Source: Candidatus Firestonebacteria bacterium RIFOXYD2_FULL_39_29
GTDB taxonomy: Bacteria; Oederibacteriota; D2-FULL-39-29
Reading direction: 5' to 3'
DNA length: 64,000 nt
Assembly (NCBI GenBank): GCA_001778375.1
Contig: MFGV01000087.1
Span: 1 to 64,000 of the forward strand
Shown here: in pieces, positions 12,929 through 23,259 of the stretch
Numbering within the stretch: the first letter of the stretch is position 1
Layout of the letters: every line of letters begins with the position of its first letter
Notes under the pieces: model-generated
What the model was told of the DNA's origin: nothing
Databases searched by the model: none
What the model saw: only the letters and a program-made list of their open reading frames with translations
Position numbers and translations under genes: made by a program

Positions 12929-14332
12929 CTACAGGTATGCTATCCTGTTTTTTCCAGATCTTTTCGCTTTGTACAGGCATTTATCAGCTTTTGATAAAAC
13001 CTCTTCAGATGTAATACCATCTTGAGGAAAGAGCGCATAACCAATACTCATCGTCACCTTTATTTTCTTTTCATATTCAATAAATTTAGCATCCATTACG
13101 CTTTTGAAGTTCTTAAGAAAAGCACCTATATCCTCATTTTTTCCGTCTCTGAGCACTGTAAATTCATCTCCACCATAACGTGCCAACACACATCCCTTTA
13201 ATTCAGATTTAAAATAATTCGCAATATTTTTCAAATATGTATTACCGGAAACATGACCATAAGTATCATTATATGTTTTAAAATTATCCAAATCTATCAT
13301 GATTATCGCAAAATCTTTTTTGTGATTAACCCGATTATCCGACTGTTCCAAGAAAAATCCGTAATTATACAAGCCGGTAAGGCGATCCATATCCGCAAGA
13401 TGTTTCACCTCTTCATACAATTTGTTTCTTTCTATTACCAGAGCGAATTCTCCGGCCAGAGTCATAAAAAGATCATAATCCTGCTCGGAAAATTCTTTCA
13501 TATTTTTCGGTTTAACTCTCAAAAACCCTGTGACTTTTTTATCTCTGGCCTGCGGGAAATAGATAAAACTTTTACCTATATATATTTTTGCCTGATTAAT
13601 AAGCAGATCTACAATCTCCGGATCCATTTCACTCGCGGAAAATTCGTCATCCTCTCGCAATAGTTTAAATTTTTTCACCTTCTTATCATAAACCGCAACT
13701 TCCCAATCTGAGATCACATCAATTTTCTCAAAAAGAGGATCTAAAAGCTGCACCATGATATAATAATCAATATTTTCATTCATTATCTCGGTAATAGCCA
13801 GAATAAGCCGGAGATCTTTAACATGTGTCTCTTCTTTTTTCACAGTTTCAGAAAGAAAACCCGTAAAAAGCCCGACCACAAAGAGGAAAGGTATTCTCAT
13901 GTAAATATTAACATCATAAATATTTACATCTTTATTTATGAGGAGCCAGGAATAAAGAAGAGAAGCGATAATTGTCGATATTATACTTGCTTTAATATCC
14001 TTTCCAAGAGCCGTTATTACAATTACCAAAAAATAAAGAAGAAAGAAATCCGTACCGGCACTTTTCGTAAAATATATCCCAAGGGAAACAAGGATTATAT
14101 CGCCTATAAAAATAATATACCTGAAGTTGTTTTCCTTGAAATACTCCAAAGAAATAAAGTAGAGAAAAATATTGGAAAGGATAAAAAACAAAACGAGTAT
14201 ATTAACATAGTTAACAAGCTGCAAGCCGTCATTGGCCGCGGAGAAAACGGCCATATAAGCAGCGGCGATAACAATAAGCCATCTGAGATTTAGAAAATTA
14301 TATTTAAACTGCACTAAATCTTTTGTATTCAT
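12929..14332 (-). CDS. Membrane GAF-GGDEF diguanylate cyclase
   Basis: 467 residues. The first 160 hold about six transmembrane segments. A GAF-like sensor region follows (about 175-310). The GGDEF domain is complete, with [26 protein letters not shown] and RYGGDEFTV, so it should make cyclic di-GMP from two GTP. No RxxD inhibitory site precedes the active site (the place reads LKGC), so product feedback is probably absent. It overlaps the leuS stop codon by four bases (ATGA), an unusual coupling of signalling to a tRNA synthetase gene. Confidence 0.9.
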
Positions 14333-16806
14333 ACTGCCACTATGTTTACCAGTTTATTTTTTACCACCACTACCTTTTTTACAGTTTTTCCCGAAAGAAA
14401 AGCAATAATTTTCTCGTCTTTCAGTGCAAGCTCTTTTACTTTTTCATCTTCGATATCCAGGGAGACGGTGAGGCGCCCGCGTAATTTCCCGTTTACCTGA
14501 AGTACAATTACCGCCTCTTCCCCGCTGATATACTCAAGATCGCACTTTGGAAGTGAATGAAGGAATATACTTTCCTTATAACCCAGTTTCTCCCAGAGTT
14601 CTTCAGTAATATGAGGCGTAAAAGGAGCCAGCAGAAGCACAAGATCTTCAACCGCCAGTTTTAACAGGGGGGGGAAAGCTTTCTCTTCCCCTTCAGGCAC
14701 CTTAAAAAGATACAGATAGTTAGTAAACTCCATAAGAGCTGCCAGAGCCGTATTGAAATGAAAATCCTTTTCCACATCTTCCGTTACTCTTTTTACGGTT
14801 TTATTAATACTGACATAAAATTCCTTAAGCTCTTTACTTAAAAGTTTTGGTTCAATTTGTCCTGTTTTTTTAATTACAGGTATTGAAGTTTCGACAAATC
14901 TTTCAACACGTCCTAAAAACCGATGAAGGCCTTCAATGCCTTTATCATTCCACTCCAGCTCTTTCTCAGGAGGCGCGGCAAAAAGTATAAAACCCCTGAC
15001 TACATCAGCGCCATATTTCTCAATAAGCGGATCAGCCTCAACCGTATTGCCCTTTGATTTACTCATTACCTGTCCGTCCTTCAAGACCATACCCTGAGTA
15101 AACAAATTAGTAAAAGGTTCATCAAAGTCAACAAGCTTTAGATCATAGAGAAATTTAGTAAAGAACCTGGAATACAGCAGGTGCAGTATTGCATGTTCAA
15201 CCCCTCCGACATACTGATCTACAGGCATCCAGTACTTCACCTTTTCAATATCAAAAGCCGCTGCATTATTTTCAGGATCGCAGTAACGGAGGAAATACCA
15301 GGAAGAGCAAATAAAGGTATTCATGGTATCCGTTTCTCTTCTTCCCTCTCCGCCGCACCCGGGACATTTAACTTCTACAAATTCTTTTACGGAAGCAAGA
15401 GGAGAAGCTCCCCCCTTCGGTTTAAAATCTGAGACAAAAGGAAGTTCTACCGGCAGATCCTTCTCCGGCACCGGCACAATTCCGCACTTATCGCAATAGA
15501 TAACGGGAATAGGCGCCCCCCAGTAGCGCTGTCTGGAGATAAGCCAGTCCCTTAATTTAAATTTTATAGCTTTCTTACCGATTTTATTTTTCTCCACAAA
15601 TTCAGCCATCAGCTCAATAGCTTCCGTATTTTTCTTTCCGTTAAATTCTCCTGAATTAACCTGGAACCCGTCATTCACATACGCTTCCGTCATTGTTTCC
15701 CCGGACAAACTCCCGCCTTCCGGCTGAATTACAACTTTAACAGGAAGATTATATTTCTTCGCAAAATCAAAGTCGCGCTGATCATGGGCAGGAACTGCCA
15801 TTACCGCACCCGTACCGTATTCCATAATGACGTAATTAACCGCATATATAGGAACTCTATCTCCGTTAAACGGATTAATCGCATAAGAGCCTATAAAGAG
15901 CCCTTCTTTTTCCGTAAGGTCAGAGGTTCTTGCTATCTCGGATTGTTTTTTAAGTTTATCGGAAAACTCTTTAACCTGAGGTTCATATTTTGTGCCTTTT
16001 ACAAGTTTTAGCGTAAGCGGATGCTCCGGAGCAATCACCAGATATGTCACGCCAAAGATTGTGTCAACTCTGGTAGTATAAACAGATATCTTATCGTCTG
16101 TTCCCTCTATTTTAAAATCCACTTCCACACCAAAAGATTTACCTATCCAGTTTTCCTGCATTATCCTGACTTTTTCCGGCCAGCCTTTAAGTTTTTTAAT
16201 ATCTTCAAGCAGCCTGTCCGCATAGTCGGTTATTTTATAGAACCATTGATCCAGTTCTTTTTTTGTAACTTCCGTTTTACACCGCCAGCAGACCCCGTCA
16301 ACGACCTCTTCATTTGCCATAACCGTCAGACACTTTGGACACCAGTTAGCTTCTTTCTTTTTCTTGTAAGCAAGACCTTTTTCGTAAAACTTCAGAAAAA
16401 GCCATTGAGTCCACTTATAGTAATCAGGAGCGCAAGTAGCAATCTCACGACTCCAGTCATAACAGATACCGATTTTTTTCAACTGCTGTTTCATAACTTC
16501 AACATTTTTATAAGTCCATTCTTTCGGGTGAACATTATTTTTTATAGCCGCGTTTTCCGCAGGAAGCCCGAAAGCGTCCCAACCCATAGGATGCAAGACG
16601 TTGTAACCCTGCATTTTCTTATATCTGGAAACCACATCTCCTATGACATAGTTTTTACAATGTCCCATATGAAGACGGCTGCCGGAAGGGTACGGGAACA
16701 TCATAAGAACATAATATTTCTGTTTTTCCGAGAAATCCTCTGCTTTAAAAAGCCCTTTACTTTCCCAGTAAGCCTGCCACTTCTTATCTATCACATTACT
16801 TATCAC
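14329..16806 (-). CDS. leuS: Leucyl-tRNA synthetase
   Basis: It charges tRNA-Leu. 825 residues, normal for bacteria. The class I signatures are present: [12 protein letters not shown] (HIGH box) near residue 40 and VMSKSKGN (KMSKS box). The zinc-type cysteines (CPKC...CWRC and CDKC...CPGCGG) and the editing domain ([30 protein letters not shown]) are also visible. The start is GTG at 16806 with AAGGAG upstream. Two dispersed repeats lie between it and the upstream FmdB gene. Confidence 0.97.
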
Positions 16807-17022: not shown

Positions 17023-17077
17023 CCGCCCAGGCGGATTTCGCAAAGATTTATGGTTATCTATTTAAGATTTGCTCAAC
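17023..17077. repeat. CCGCCTAGGCGG-type repeat, copy 2, overlapping fmdB stop
   Basis: CCGCCCAGGCGGATTTCGC ... GCTCAAC. The TGA stop of the FmdB gene (17073-17075) lies inside the repeat's terminal GTTGAGC (minus strand). Confidence 0.7.
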
Positions 17078-17492
17078 TGCCTTTTCCGTCTTCCGCCCTC
17101 GGTTTTTTCCGTGCCTCTGTTCCTCCGGCTTTTTTTCCGCCCTCTGACCCCTGGCTTCTGTCTTCAGCTTTTGCCGTTTTCACAGCTTCCGACTTCTGAC
17201 TTCCGCTTCCGCTTTTCTGCGCATCTGAGCCTCCGCCCTTCTGAGCATCTGCACCGCCCTCCGACTTCTGTCCTCTATCCTCTGTTTTTCCCGTACTTCC
17301 ACTGGAGCTTCCGCTCTTTTTGTAGTCATTAACATAAAAACCGGATCCCTTAAAGACAAAACCTACGCGGGAGGCAGGAAGTTTTGGCGCTTTAGCCCCG
17401 CATTTTTCGCATTTTTCCGACTGTTTATTCTTTGTTTGCAGTACTTCAAATAAGTGACCGCATTTATCGCACTTATATTCATAAATTGGCAT
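17073..17492 (-). CDS. FmdB-family zinc ribbon protein with repeat-derived tail
   Basis: Residues 1-60 are a typical FmdB/putative regulatory zinc ribbon: MPIYEYKCDKCGHLFEV, EKCEKCG and the GSGFYVNDYKK end. Four cysteines bind zinc. FmdB proteins are usually about 60-110 residues. Here the last 75 residues are a low-complexity Gly/Ser/Lys/Glu tail (EDRGQKSEGG, DAQKSGSGSQKSE, AEDRSQGSEGGKK). Its DNA is made of CCTCTGTC/TTCTGACTTC words like those in intergenic repeats. The start follows AAGGA, within the shared leader motif. Confidence 0.8.
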   Translation of the reverse strand: MPIYEYKCDKCGHLFEVLQTKNKQSEKCEKCGAKAPKLPASRVGFVFKGSGFYVNDYKKSGSSSGSTGKTEDRGQKSEGGADAQKGGGSDAQKSGSGSQKSEAVKTAKAEDRSQGSEGGKKAGGTEARKKPRAEDGKGS

Positions 17493-17728: not shown

Positions 17729-20700
17729 TTAAATCATCAATTTTTTTATATCTACTTCCGTACTTCCGGATTTCATTATTTTTTTATCGGACAGAAACTC
17801 TTTATCCTTTGTCTCTTCATTATTATAGAAGACGATCCTTTCCGCATATTTAGCATCACCTTTTTTAACCGATTCAAAGAACTCTTTATAATCCCCGTCC
17901 GCAAGGCTTGCGCTGATAATTACATTCCTGTAATTTCCCATAGTAAGCTTTTGTTTTGCAAGTTTGGCATTTCTTGCGATATAAACACTGTAACCCATAT
18001 TATAAAGAGAATCCCCGAAGATCTTAATTATTTCACCTTTATCATCCACGACCAGAAGATTATTTTCCTCTTCTTCGGAATGCTCGGGCGAAGAAACAGG
18101 AGCTGCAGGAGAAGGAGCAGTATAAATATCAAAGGAATCATGCTTTCCGCCGGCTTGTTCAGTTTTAGACTTTAAATCAGTTTCATTATTTTCAGATTTT
18201 TCAACCGGCTTTTCTTTACCCGGCTCCTCAATATTCAGATCCGATTTAAAAGCAGACGTCCTCTCGATAACCATTTCCAGCTTTCTTTTTTGTTTATCTT
18301 CAGTATCCGTTTTTGTTTCAACAGAGAAAACCGGCAGAGGTTTTGCCTGCTCCTGCTCGAGTTCTTTTCTCATGATTTCGTAATGTTTCCTTGCAGCATC
18401 ACGCTCCGCAGTCAGTTCCCCTTTTTGTTCTTCAAGATCTTTTATCTTCTCTTTAAGAGCCTGTTGATCCTCTCCTACTTTAAGTATCAAAGATTGAGCC
18501 TGTTTATCGGTCTCTTTTTTCCTGCCTTCAACAACATTAAGAGCTTCCGTCATTTTTTTATTTTCATTCACCAATAACATATATTTTTGTTCCAAATCAA
18601 GCTTTATCATTTCAAGTTCCCGCACCTTCCCGGATGCTTTCAACTTGTCTTCTTCCATTCTTCTGGTTGCTTCACCGACTGTAGCCATAACCTTCTGCGC
18701 AGCATCTTTAGAGGAGGCAACTTCAGCCAGCTGTACCGCAAGGCCGGTCTTTTCCTGATTTAAAGCCCTAACAGCAGTTTCCAGCTGATTAATCCTGTCA
18801 AGAGCAGATTTCTTTTCTTCTTCTATTTTAGCCTGCAGTTCGGAAAGAGGGACATAAGCAGACAGATCCGCCACAGGTTTTTCCTTTTCTGCTTTTAGAG
18901 CCTGTTCCAGATCTCTTATTCTTCCTGCGTATTTTTGATCCTGAGCTTCAAGCCGTTCGGTCACCAGATCTGCAACTTTTTCTACAGGCATAAACTCGGC
19001 AGTATTTACCGGCTTTTCCTCGGCGGCTTTGACTTTCTTTTCCATCTCTGCTAACCTGACCTCAAAATACTCTTCTTTCTCTTTTAAAACACTATTATTT
19101 TTTTCTTCCAATTCGGCCAGCTGTCTTTGTTTTTCTTGTATTTCGTTATCTTTGGCACCCGCAAGCTCTCTTAAACTATTCAATTCACCAAGCTGTTTTT
19201 CGGCCTCCTGCAATTTCGCGCTAAGATCAGCCTGCTCTTTTTGCCCTGCCTCAACTTCCCTGTTTTTTAAAGCCTGCAGCTCTGCAAATTGTTGTTCCCT
19301 CTCTTGCAGTTTAAAAACCATCTCATTTTGTTTTGCCTCAAGTTCCTTATCTTTTTGTTCAAGCTGTTTTGCTCCGGCAGCAACCTGAGACACTTCTACA
19401 AGTTTTTCTTCAAGTGCCTTATTCTTCTCCTCCAACTGCTTCATGCCGGTCATTACAGCAGCAGCTTCCATAAGTTTCTTTTCAAGCACTGCCACTTCAT
19501 CTTTATTTTCCTTTTCCCTTGCCGCCTTTTCTTCGTTTACCTTATCCAGAGGCACAAACCGTGCAGGATCCGGTTTTTCCACGGCTGTTTTTAACCGGTT
19601 TTCCAACTCTTGAATCTTTAATACAAAATTCTTTCTATCCGCCTCTATTCTGGTGTTAACCTCGGCAAGGGGGATAAACCTTGAAGGATCCATCTGGGCC
19701 AATTTCACGGAATCTGTTTTAATTTTATTCTCCAGTTCCACAACCCTTGAGGCTTCTATATTTACCTGTTTATTTAACTCCTCCACTTTTATATTGTAAT
19801 TCTTCTTTTCCTCTTCAAATTTTGAAACAAGCATTTCCGCGAGATTCCTACCTTCGTTTTCCAAAGATTTAACTTTGTTAACAAGTTGTTCATTCTCGCC
19901 CTTTAATTTTTCAAAATTTTCTTTAAAACCGTCATTTGCCTTTTGAACCTCTCCCAAACGCTGGACCATACCCTGGTCGTTCCCGTTTTTCGATGAGGAG
20001 TTTTTTGTTAACTCCGAAAGCTTTTCTTCAAGTCTATTCTTATCAATTTTCGATTCATTAAACCTGACTTCAAGCTCTGCCCCAACCTTTTCCAGCTCGT
20101 TAACCTTGCTGATAAAATTCTTTCTTTCCGTTTCAAGTTTTTTATTATAATCTTCTATTTTAATGTACTTGTTCGGATCCGGTTCCCCTGATGCCGTCCC
20201 CGGCTGCATAATAAGCTTTCTATATTCCGCTGTTTTCTCATTTAACCTGCGTTCAAAATCATTCTTTGATTTTTCAATTTCACTTATCTTCAAAAGAAGC
20301 CCTTTTCTTTCAGCTTCAAGTTTCATGTTAAACTCATTAATAGAAATATACTGCGAAAGATCAGGTTTTGCACCGCCGTTTTTAGCCAGAGCCTCTTTCA
20401 GCTCCGTCCTGACTTTCTCCAGTTGATTCCCCAGCTCCGTATTTCTTTCGCCAAATTCCCGGAGTTTGTCATCAAATATTTTCTTTTCCTCTGTAAGCAT
20501 AGTCGCGGATGACCGGAGAGTTCCGTCTTCACTTGAGAGCTCAGTATTTTTTGAAACGTAATTCAAAAGAATAACCATAAAAACTATAGAAAGCCCTGTG
20601 CATAAAAGACCTGTACCGAGTACGGCAATATTAATCCCGCTACTTTTTGACTTTGCAGTTGTAACCGAAACTGCCGCGGATTTTTCGAGATTAACCGCGG

Positions 20701-21811
20701 GGATAAACAACACCAGAGAAAGTCCTCCGGTTCTCACCGGAAAATGGGCAAGGTAATACTCTTTTTTGTTTACGGAAACGCTCTCAACCCCTCCGAGCTC
20801 TTCATCCCTTGTTGTATTCTCCCAGAATTTGGGATCAAGAACACGGGAAAGGGACGATTGAAAACCTTCATTACCATAACTTTTAAGGTCGGATTGCGCT
20901 GTTACCGCACCGTCAATCTTCAGCATGTCGTAGCCGTAAATTGAAGAAGCTGCAAGCACGCCGTTTTTTGTAAGCACGGCAGGGAAAGTATCCGGATAAG
21001 TAAATTTCTTTGCCTGGTCCTTTCCGATAAGTTTTTCAAGAAGCTTTTGAAGTGATATATCAGCGCCGAGCACTCCTTTGTAAACACCGTCAATATAAAG
21101 AGGCATGAAGTACGAGATCATCCAGCTCTTCGATTCCTGATTCCAGTATGCTTCCGTCCAAATCTCCATCCTGCTTTTATTCAAATCAGGACCTGCGATA
21201 CGGTAAGGCGAAGAATCTTCATTCATAAACAAGCTGTCTGCTTTAATTTTATAATTTCCGACTTTATAAAGCCCTGTCTTAACAAGATCATCAATTTTGG
21301 CCCAGGGGTATTTTCTGACAGCTGTTTCAGTCATAATATAGACAGACTCAATCACAGTCCCATTTTTCTCGATCAGAGAGAGCGTACTATCCAGGTAAGC
21401 ACCAATAACCGGGATTTTTCCGTCCTTTGAAGCCTCCTTATAACTGCCGCTGACAAAAAGAACCCCTCCTTCTTTCTCGGGACTCCAGAGGAACTTTCCA
21501 CCGGCGTCGGTTTTAATTTTTCTATAATCTTCCTGGGTAAAAAACGCGTTTTGCCTCTTAAAAACACCGGCGATAACGTCACCGCCCATACGTCCAGCCA
21601 ATTCAACTTTCCGGAGAATCATAGTCAAATACCAGGAATTCCTGGCAGTAAGAGAGACAGCATTATTCTTCTCGCTCTGAAGTACATTCGGCGTGTTTGG
21701 TTTTCCTGCAATATTCAAACCGGACGATTGAAACGAAAAATAAACAGTTAGAAGTACCACGGGAATTATACCTGCCAATATAAAAACTCCGGTTAGTTTA
21801 CTTTTTACCAT
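17729..21811 (-). CDS. Giant membrane sensor: dCache-like domain, coiled-coil repeats, pseudo-receiver
   Basis: About 1360 residues from the ATG at 21811. N-terminal transmembrane helix (about 10-30); periplasmic Cache-like sensor (about 45-380, with SWMISYFMPLYIDGVYKGVLGADIS cut as WMISYF...KGVLGADIS); second helix (about 398-422). A coiled coil of some 700 residues follows. It contains six spaced copies of a motif with consensus [YF][IV]PLxEVN then a charged helix ending KIxELE, each often preceded by KPDP or similar. A linker rich in charged residues leads to a C-terminal receiver-like domain (NLLVVDDKGEIIK). There the phosphoacceptor site is lost: NVIISASLADGD has no Asp at the strand end. 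No histidine kinase, methyl-accepting or GGDEF domain is present. It overlaps hldE2. The function is unknown. Confidence 0.7.
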   Translation of the reverse strand: MVKSKLTGVFILAGIIPVVLLTVYFSFQSSGLNIAGKPNTPNVLQSEKNNAVSLTARNSWYLTMILRKVELAGRMGGDVIAGVFKRQNAFFTQEDYRKIKTDAGGKFLWSPEKEGGVLFVSGSYKEASKDGKIPVIGAYLDSTLSLIEKNGTVIESVYIMTETAVRKYPWAKIDDLVKTGLYKVGNYKIKADSLFMNEDSSPYRIAGPDLNKSRMEIWTEAYWNQESKSWMISYFMPLYIDGVYKGVLGADISLQKLLEKLIGKDQAKKFTYPDTFPAVLTKNGVLAASSIYGYDMLKIDGAVTAQSDLKSYGNEGFQSSLSRVLDPKFWENTTRDEELGGVESVSVNKKEYYLAHFPVRTGGLSLVLFIPAVNLEKSAAVSVTTAKSKSSGINIAVLGTGLLCTGLSIVFMVILLNYVSKNTELSSEDGTLRSSATMLTEEKKIFDDKLREFGERNTELGNQLEKVRTELKEALAKNGGAKPDLSQYISINEFNMKLEAERKGLLLKISEIEKSKNDFERRLNEKTAEYRKLIMQPGTASGEPDPNKYIKIEDYNKKLETERKNFISKVNELEKVGAELEVRFNESKIDKNRLEEKLSELTKNSSSKNGNDQGMVQRLGEVQKANDGFKENFEKLKGENEQLVNKVKSLENEGRNLAEMLVSKFEEEKKNYNIKVEELNKQVNIEASRVVELENKIKTDSVKLAQMDPSRFIPLAEVNTRIEADRKNFVLKIQELENRLKTAVEKPDPARFVPLDKVNEEKAAREKENKDEVAVLEKKLMEAAAVMTGMKQLEEKNKALEEKLVEVSQVAAGAKQLEQKDKELEAKQNEMVFKLQEREQQFAELQALKNREVEAGQKEQADLSAKLQEAEKQLGELNSLRELAGAKDNEIQEKQRQLAELEEKNNSVLKEKEEYFEVRLAEMEKKVKAAEEKPVNTAEFMPVEKVADLVTERLEAQDQKYAGRIRDLEQALKAEKEKPVADLSAYVPLSELQAKIEEEKKSALDRINQLETAVRALNQEKTGLAVQLAEVASSKDAAQKVMATVGEATRRMEEDKLKASGKVRELEMIKLDLEQKYMLLVNENKKMTEALNVVEGRKKETDKQAQSLILKVGEDQQALKEKIKDLEEQKGELTAERDAARKHYEIMRKELEQEQAKPLPVFSVETKTDTEDKQKRKLEMVIERTSAFKSDLNIEEPGKEKPVEKSENNETDLKSKTEQAGGKHDSFDIYTAPSPAAPVSSPEHSEEEENNLLVVDDKGEIIKIFGDSLYNMGYSVYIARNAKLAKQKLTMGNYRNVIISASLADGDYKEFFESVKKGDAKYAERIVFYNNEETKDKEFLSDKKIMKSGSTEVDIKKLMI

Positions 21812-22289
21812 TTTTTCCACTTTTACCAGCCTTTTTAATTATATTTGTAGTTGATTTGTTTTTTATAAGAGGAATATTAAAAACCTTGCCTCCTGCATTT
21901 TTGACTAAATCGCCGCCGACAATACTTTCAACAGACCAGTCCCCTCCCTTTACAAGCACGTGAGGAAGTACTGCTTTTATCGTATCATACGGAGTGTCCT
22001 TTTTAAAAAGCACTACTAAATCCACAAAGGGGAATTCCGAAAGTATCTCCATCCTGTCGTTCTCGTTATTAACAGGCCTGCCGGGACCTTTCAAACGCTT
22101 AACAGAAGCATCGCTATTAACGGCAATTATAAGCACATCCCCGAGCTTCCTTGCTGCTTTTAAATACCGCGTATGCCCGACGTGAATAATATCAAAGCAT
22201 CCGTTGGTAAATACAATTTTTTTACCATTTTTCTTCAAGGCCTTAACAACCCTGACAAGGGCATATAGTGTTTTAATTTTTGTGTTCAT
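21798..22289 (-). CDS. hldE2: D-glycero-beta-D-manno-heptose 1-phosphate adenylyltransferase
   Basis: It activates heptose-1-phosphate with ATP to ADP-heptose. The 163-residue protein has the nucleotidyltransferase motifs FTNGCFDIIHVGHTRYL, VNSDASVKRLKGPGRPV and the LVKGGDW block. In E. coli this is the C-terminal half of HldE; here it is a separate gene. It starts 17 bases inside the end of hldE1 and its own 3' end overlaps the giant sensor gene. Confidence 0.93.
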   Translation of the reverse strand: MNTKIKTLYALVRVVKALKKNGKKIVFTNGCFDIIHVGHTRYLKAARKLGDVLIIAVNSDASVKRLKGPGRPVNNENDRMEILSEFPFVDLVVLFKKDTPYDTIKAVLPHVLVKGGDWSVESIVGGDLVKNAGGKVFNIPLIKNKSTTNIIKKAGKSGKNGKK

Positions 22290-23259
22290 TAAGCGCCTGT
22301 TTTAACTCCATCATTGAAAGCGGAGCCGTGCCGACTTTGCCGACAACCACACCCGCGGCAAAATTTGAAAGATACGCAGCATCGAGTAAAGAAGCTTTTG
22401 AAGCAAGCGCCATCGCCAGTACTGCAATAACCGTATCTCCGGCGCCTGTAACATCATAAACTTCTCTCGCGTAAGTGGGAATAGTAACGGGCTTTTTTCC
22501 TTTTTCAAAAAGAGTCATCCCGTGTTCTCCGCGTGTTATTAATACCGAGTCGCTTTTTATTTTTGTAAGAAGTTCTTTACCGACTGAATAGAGCGAAGCT
22601 TCGTCCTTAATAATTTTATGCACCGAACCCTCTGCTTCCTTCGCATTTGGAGTTATCACAGTAACACCCTTATAAAGCAGACAGTATGCCGGTTTTGGAT
22701 CCACGGCAATTTTTATTTTTTTCCTTTTCGCCATTTTAATTACTTCCTTGAAGACGGAAGGGATAACGACGCCCTTGCCGTAATCGGAGATAATAACCAC
22801 ATCCACTTCATCCATGAGAGACTCGACACGGCTCAAAAGCTGTCTTACTATGGCAGGACTTACATGTGTTCTTTTTTCTGAGTCAATGCGGACAATCTGC
22901 TGGTGCTGGGCAATAACCCTGGTTTTAAGTATGGTCGGCCGTTCGGAATCTTTCACAAGCCCGAAAGCGGAGATGCCCTTTTTAGAAAGCTCGCTGGTTA
23001 CTTTTTCTCCATAAACATCGTCACCTATGACGCTGATAAGGTGCGCTTTTCCTCCAAAATTAGAGATATGGGAAGCCACGTAAGCCGCCCCGCCCGGAAG
23101 TAGCGTTCTGGATTGTTCTTCCACAACAGGAACCGGCGCTTCAGGCGAGATACGATTGACTTTACCGAATATATACTCATCAAGAATAACATCCCCAAGC
23201 ACCAAAACACGGGTAACATTAAACTTTTTCAATATTTTTTCAAGCTTTTTCGGATCCAC
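22273..23259 (-). CDS. hldE1: D-glycero-beta-D-manno-heptose-7-phosphate kinase
   Basis: A PfkB-family kinase making heptose-1,7-bisphosphate. The 328-residue protein has LGDVILDEYIFGKVNRISPE, APVPVVEE, LPGGAAYVASHIS and the catalytic DVTGAGDTVIA anion-hole/Asp motif. The start is GTG at 23259 with GGGG upstream. hldE1-hldE2 is followed by the giant sensor gene in one overlapping run. Confidence 0.94.
   Translation of the reverse strand: MDPKKLEKILKKFNVTRVLVLGDVILDEYIFGKVNRISPEAPVPVVEEQSRTLLPGGAAYVASHISNFGGKAHLISVIGDDVYGEKVTSELSKKGISAFGLVKDSERPTILKTRVIAQHQQIVRIDSEKRTHVSPAIVRQLLSRVESLMDEVDVVIISDYGKGVVIPSVFKEVIKMAKRKKIKIAVDPKPAYCLLYKGVTVITPNAKEAEGSVHKIIKDEASLYSVGKELLTKIKSDSVLITRGEHGMTLFEKGKKPVTIPTYAREVYDVTGAGDTVIAVLAMALASKASLLDAAYLSNFAAGVVVGKVGTAPLSMMELKQALNEHKN

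Follow-up and report, generated by a model that had tools for sequence, protein, structure and literature searches.

A single-copy giant membrane protein with a dCache-type sensor, a coiled-coil rod and an aspartate-less pseudo-receiver in one order of uncultured bacteria, Candidatus Firestonebacteria

Locus, neighbourhood and distribution

The window analysed in this study is a stretch of 64,000 nucleotides of contig MFGV01000087.1 from Candidatus Firestonebacteria bacterium RIFOXYD2_FULL_39_29. A single long open reading frame on its minus strand encodes a giant protein, in which a first transmembrane (TM) helix, a dCache-type sensor, a second TM helix, a coiled-coil rod, a disordered linker and a C-terminal receiver follow one another (Table 1). 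An initial sequence-only reading had started the gene at the ATG at 21811. Because three orthologs of the same family begin with GTG at the codon corresponding to 21820 and do not carry the Met of the ATG position, we place the start at this GTG. The same reading described an overlap with LPS heptose genes. An overlap of 23 bp does exist, but it concerns the rfaE2-type cytidylyltransferase only.

Table 1. Positions in the window of the giant gene, its parts and its neighbours.
Feature	Position	Strand	Basis or remark
Whole giant gene	17729..21820	-	1363 aa; GTG start, kept in G002-G004; stop 17729-17731
TM helix 1, aa 12-30	21731..21787	-	Hydropathy; likewise in orthologs covering the N-terminus
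Extracytoplasmic dCache-type sensor, aa 31-398	20627..21730	-	Sub-threshold Pfam PF22673/PF02743; Foldseek to dCache structures
TM helix 2, aa 400-418	20567..20623	-	Hydropathy
Cytoplasmic coiled-coil rod, aa ~431-1160	18341..20530	-	3.5-residue periodicity, AlphaFold helices, indels; ortholog length variable
Motif copy 1, aa 487-516, DLSQYISINEFNMKLEAERKGLLLKISEIE	20273..20362	-	Motif scan, leave-one-out test, diagonal scan
Motif copy 2, aa 548-577	20090..20179	-	Motif scan, leave-one-out test, diagonal scan
Motif copy 3, aa 711-740, DPSRFIPLAEVNTRIEADRKNFVLKIQELE	19601..19690	-	Leave-one-out test; helix break aa 711-717 in model; in 5/5 same-family orthologs
Motif copy 4, aa 751-780	19481..19570	-	Leave-one-out test; model helix break
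Motif copy 5, aa 939-972	18905..19006	-	Divergent, 4-residue insertion; supported by G001/G004 orthologs; leave-one-out fails
Motif copy 6, aa 985-1014	18779..18868	-	Leave-one-out test; model helix break
Linker, aa ~1161-1253	18062..18340	-	Fast-evolving, low confidence; pLDDT 30-50; dN/dS 0.17-0.47
Pseudo-receiver domain, aa 1254-1363	17732..18061	-	Fold model, Foldseek, alignment, Pfam, PDB profile search
Ser1303, at phospho-acceptor Asp position	17912..17914	-	Ortholog alignment; S/N/G in 9 orthologs
rfaE2-type cytidylyltransferase, upstream neighbour	21798..22289	-	Pfam CTP_transf_like; 23 bp overlap with giant gene
rfaE1-type PfkB kinase	22273..23259	-	Pfam PfkB
FmdB-type zinc ribbon protein, downstream neighbour	17073..17492	-	Pfam Zn_ribbon_8, ortholog neighbourhoods; 9/9 order genomes
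leuS (leucyl-tRNA synthetase), conserved next neighbour	14329..16806	-	Recognised by sequence and position

The nine genomes of the order comprise five of the same family (G000-G004, G000 being the window genome) and four of a sister family (G005-G008), and the gene order rfaE1-rfaE2-giant-fmdB-leuS was constant in all nine. The FmdB-type gene, which occupies the interval between the giant gene and leuS in each of them, encodes a low-complexity tail. In the sister family, genes for a heptosyltransferase, a DUF3108 protein and a SIS_2 protein lie upstream of the locus. A gene for a membrane GGDEF diguanylate cyclase follows leuS in the family of the window (12929-14332) and is missing there in the sister family; an obligate partnership with the giant protein was therefore rejected. 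A promoter scan gave results at chance level.

A search of 59 relatives detected the giant protein in each of the eight remaining order genomes and in no further genome. Two orthologs lie on records MFGS01000013.1 and JAPLKO010000052.1, both from Candidatus Firestonebacteria. A profile of the sensor detected one copy per genome in 9/9 order genomes, the copy of G001 being split over two contigs. This ortholog (L028) has a run of six unknown residues in the rod, where the assembly probably has a gap in repeated sequence. The same profile found no giant protein in 36 other genomes of the phylum, and beyond the phylum (the rest of a 384-genome set, approximately 340 genomes) it matched one short dCache-like frame only; the genome collections searched hold about half of GTDB species, and absence here means absence within those. 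For other families of the phylum, 36 stretches around rfaE2 or leuS were read, and none contained a homolog next to either gene.

The dN/dS ratios were 0.03-0.10 for the sensor, 0.09-0.18 for the rod, 0.17-0.47 for the linker and 0.04-0.17 for the receiver, with dS near saturation in several pairs and the rod and linker values undefined for one pair. Strong purifying selection on the sensor and receiver therefore argues against a decayed gene, and to judge from these substitution patterns the giant protein is in use.

Sensor, rod and repeated motif

The proposal of a Cache-like sensor flanked by two membrane helices agrees with our results. Pfam matched the region with PF22673 (9e-6) and PF02743 (9.3e-6), both below the curated cut-offs (26.5/27 and 25.8/45). 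The model of the sensor is weak (pLDDT 59) and poor in its first half, with pLDDT <50 at residues 89-154 and 165-217; Foldseek aligned it to solved dCache domains with an E-value of 6.7e-8 and a probability of 1.00 to many of them. As modelled, the sensor is a dCache fold, and we call it dCache-type. Topology rules and the domain types would place the sensor outside and the rod inside the cell.

The coiled coil of about 700 residues that had been read from the sequence was confirmed. It spans approximately 730 residues in the window protein, is helical in the model and has a period of about 3.5. Its length among the orthologs varies about two-fold, from about 350 to 730 residues, which corresponds to roughly 50-110 nm if fully extended, which makes any function that depends on a constant reach unlikely. 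The indels were mixed with respect to multiples of seven and followed no clean rule. Self-BLAST found no internal duplications in the rod, and a diagonal scan was then used. It revealed a duplication of 105 residues in G004 and a repeat of 24 residues in G000 and G001, longer in G001. The rods of G005, G006 and G008 contain a tandem repeat of 52 residues, with a shorter trace in G007. In the former three (L033, L034 and L036), the repeat is phased, runs to about four to five copies and is unrelated to the YIPLxEVN motif described below.

Six copies of the YIPLxEVN motif had been reported in the rod, and six do exist. With a leave-one-out PSSM, five of them were recovered from the other five (0/1000 shuffles as good), but copy 5 was missed (0.3 bits, 824/1000 shuffles). 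The motifs had also been called evenly spaced, which is incorrect: the intervals are 61, 163, 40, 188 and 46 residues. The PSSM scan counted six copies in G000, six in G001, two in G002, four in G003 and seven in G004 (some of them weak), and none in G005-G008. When the motif profile was compared with 45 genomes of the phylum, convincing copies appeared only in orthologs of the giant protein, together with two weak matches at E 0.02-0.03. Copies 3-6 lie at helix breaks in the AlphaFold model, and a new helix follows each. The simplest reading is that the motif may be a hinge or helix-cap module that was multiplied by duplication in one family. The stretch around copy 3 (aa 691-750) has a same-family identity of 0.71-0.81, and within the rod, copy 3 with its flanks is the leading candidate for a putative binding site.

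Receiver domain

The C-terminal domain is predicted as a receiver fold with a pLDDT of 83-90, and Foldseek matched it to RR468, TrrA and CheY, the top matches including HK853-RR468 complexes. Pfam Response_reg was found in all nine ortholog receivers at E<=1, with a best value of 2.4e-6 and a value of 0.01, below the cut-off, for the window protein. The position of the phosphorylated Asp is occupied by S, S, S, N, N, G, G, G and G in the nine orthologs, and the Thr/Ser position by N, S, N, N, N, G, G, G and G. The loss of the Asp, already noted for this one protein, thus extends to 9/9 orthologs. By its residues, the domain is an aspartate-less pseudo-receiver, which would be unable to take phosphate at that site because the canonical Asp is absent throughout the order. 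The Asp pair of the acidic pocket (DD) is kept in 9/9, which may point to retained metal binding or to a remnant of the conformational switch. The receiver Lys (aa 1350) reads K/T/K/K/R/R/K/K/K when the KSG in a canonical receiver from the window genome guides the alignment, which is uncertain by one column. This canonical receiver stands alone (L115:3578-3940, G000:C22), and the KSG ending is common to both.

Conservation within the pseudo-receiver is asymmetric. Identity between the two families was 0.61 in beta1-alpha1-beta2-alpha2 and 0.28 in the rest, compared with 0.39 and 0.36 in nine ordinary receivers. This indicates that selection maintains one face and no longer constrains the phosphorylation switch or the face normally used for output.

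Pfam and NCBIfam searches of the giant protein at E<=1 matched neither a kinase, HAMP or MCP domain nor any other output domain, and the families matched by Pfam in the nine orthologs included no kinase, HAMP or MCP domain, in line with the earlier statement that no output domain could be named.

Possible function and comparison with known systems

We believe, with a probability of about 0.5, that the giant protein, present in a single copy and in one order, is a scaffold for signalling at the membrane, which would act independently of phosphorylation through partner binding by its pseudo-receiver. Because the phosphorylation site is lost, signalling probably proceeds by partner binding instead of phosphate transfer. 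The rod would make the protein a dimer, and ligand binding or the local state of the envelope would shift the protein or change its rod. The YIPLxEVN modules, spread by duplication, may join segments of the rod as hinges or helix caps, and the flexible linker carries the pseudo-receiver at the end of the rod. There, the beta1-alpha1-beta2-alpha2 face may hold or recruit a partner without phosphotransfer, for example a histidine kinase, an output regulator or an envelope machine. PilT and HisKA proteins occur in 9/9 order genomes, so that partners from pilus or two-component systems are possible in each of them; MCPsignal proteins were found in 2/9, which makes a chemoreceptor array unlikely, in particular as a universal partner. 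The MCP signalling domains of the two genomes are at G000:C74:2038-2589 and G001:C13:23930-24376.

There is precedent for a pseudo-receiver that recruits a partner independently of phosphorylation. FrzS of Myxococcus xanthus combines a pseudo-receiver with a long coiled coil and is not controlled through phosphorylation of an Asp (PMC1974792); the protein is localised by the coiled coil, and the pseudo-receiver binds SgmX (PMC11580455). The giant protein likewise joins a receiver fold without the phosphorylated Asp to an extensive coiled coil. The best reading of this likeness is that it would work like FrzS in reverse order, fixed in the membrane and with a sensor added. However, the receiver of FrzS is N-terminal, whereas that of the giant protein is C-terminal, after two TM helices, the dCache-type sensor and the rod. 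One of the two acidic residues is replaced in FrzS (Ser10), whereas the DD pair is kept here, and the published description of FrzS mentions no membrane sensor. FrzS was not among the best 60 of 112 PDB sequence matches to the giant's receiver. FrzS is thus the best working analogy, and differences in domain order, membrane anchoring and DD pair speak against membership. The receiver belongs by sequence to the aspartate-less pseudo-receivers of bacteria, among which that of CikA binds KaiB through its alpha1-beta2-alpha2 surface (PMC12632262). The dCache chemoreceptors resemble the giant protein in having a dCache-type sensor between two TM helices and then a cytoplasmic coiled coil, but the giant protein has no HAMP and no MCPsignal domain (no PF00015 match). 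A literature search did not find the combination of a pseudo-receiver, dCache sensor, TM helices and very long rod. More tentatively, an outside sensor linked by a hinged rod of 50-110 nm to a pseudo-receiver whose binding face has moved to beta1-alpha1-beta2-alpha2 may define a class of phosphorylation-free, kinase-less one-protein transducers fixed in one order, a suggestion we hold with less confidence than the scaffold itself.

The hybrid histidine kinases share with the giant protein an outside sensor, TM helices and a C-terminal receiver, but in the giant protein the HisKA/HATPase core is absent and the phosphorylated Asp is lost. It is conceivable, if rather unlikely, that the protein descends from such a kinase, its kinase core replaced by the coiled coil and its receiver now binding to another histidine kinase, as a decoy or an inhibitor. 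Of the best ten scanned receiver loci outside the order, six lie in HisKA-HATPase-receiver proteins, with the Asp intact where inspected, and that the outside relatives are mostly of this kind suggests descent from a hybrid kinase. The alpha1 side of receivers is the side on which kinases dock, and this side is conserved here; the HK853-RR468 complexes among the top Foldseek matches and the order-wide HisKA kinases also fit a decoy. However, Pfam and NCBIfam found no trace of HisKA or HATPase in the rod, and the nearest solved receiver by PDB profile search was TrrA, a stand-alone regulator.

A mainly structural role is improbable in our opinion. The protein would then be a membrane-anchored cytoskeletal or spacer rod that organises the envelope, possibly in connection with the assembly of LPS or pili, and its sensor and receiver would serve as anchors. 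The long and plastic rod is consistent with this, as is the LPS-heptose gene neighbourhood, including the heptosyltransferase and SIS_2 genes of the sister family, but the sensor and receiver are conserved most and the rod less, and a dCache ligand domain would be superfluous in such a rod. By far the weakest proposal is the original scaffold, in which the six rod motifs were six equivalent, repeated docking sites: the motif is statistically real with a constant aromatic/hydrophobic core, but its spacing is irregular, its copy number ranges from two to seven within the family, it is absent in four of nine orthologs, all of the sister family, and its modelled copies lie at helix breaks or N-caps.

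What turns bacterial pseudo-receivers on and off in the absence of phosphorylation has been described as a mystery (PMC12632262). In the giant protein, the pseudo-receiver is part of the same chain as a membrane sensor, and the comparison of nine orthologs reveals the face of the domain that is conserved, which makes a switching route from sensor to rod to pseudo-receiver directly testable. The rod would also illustrate that a striking motif repeated along a coiled coil can act as a hinge specific to one lineage instead of a functional array.
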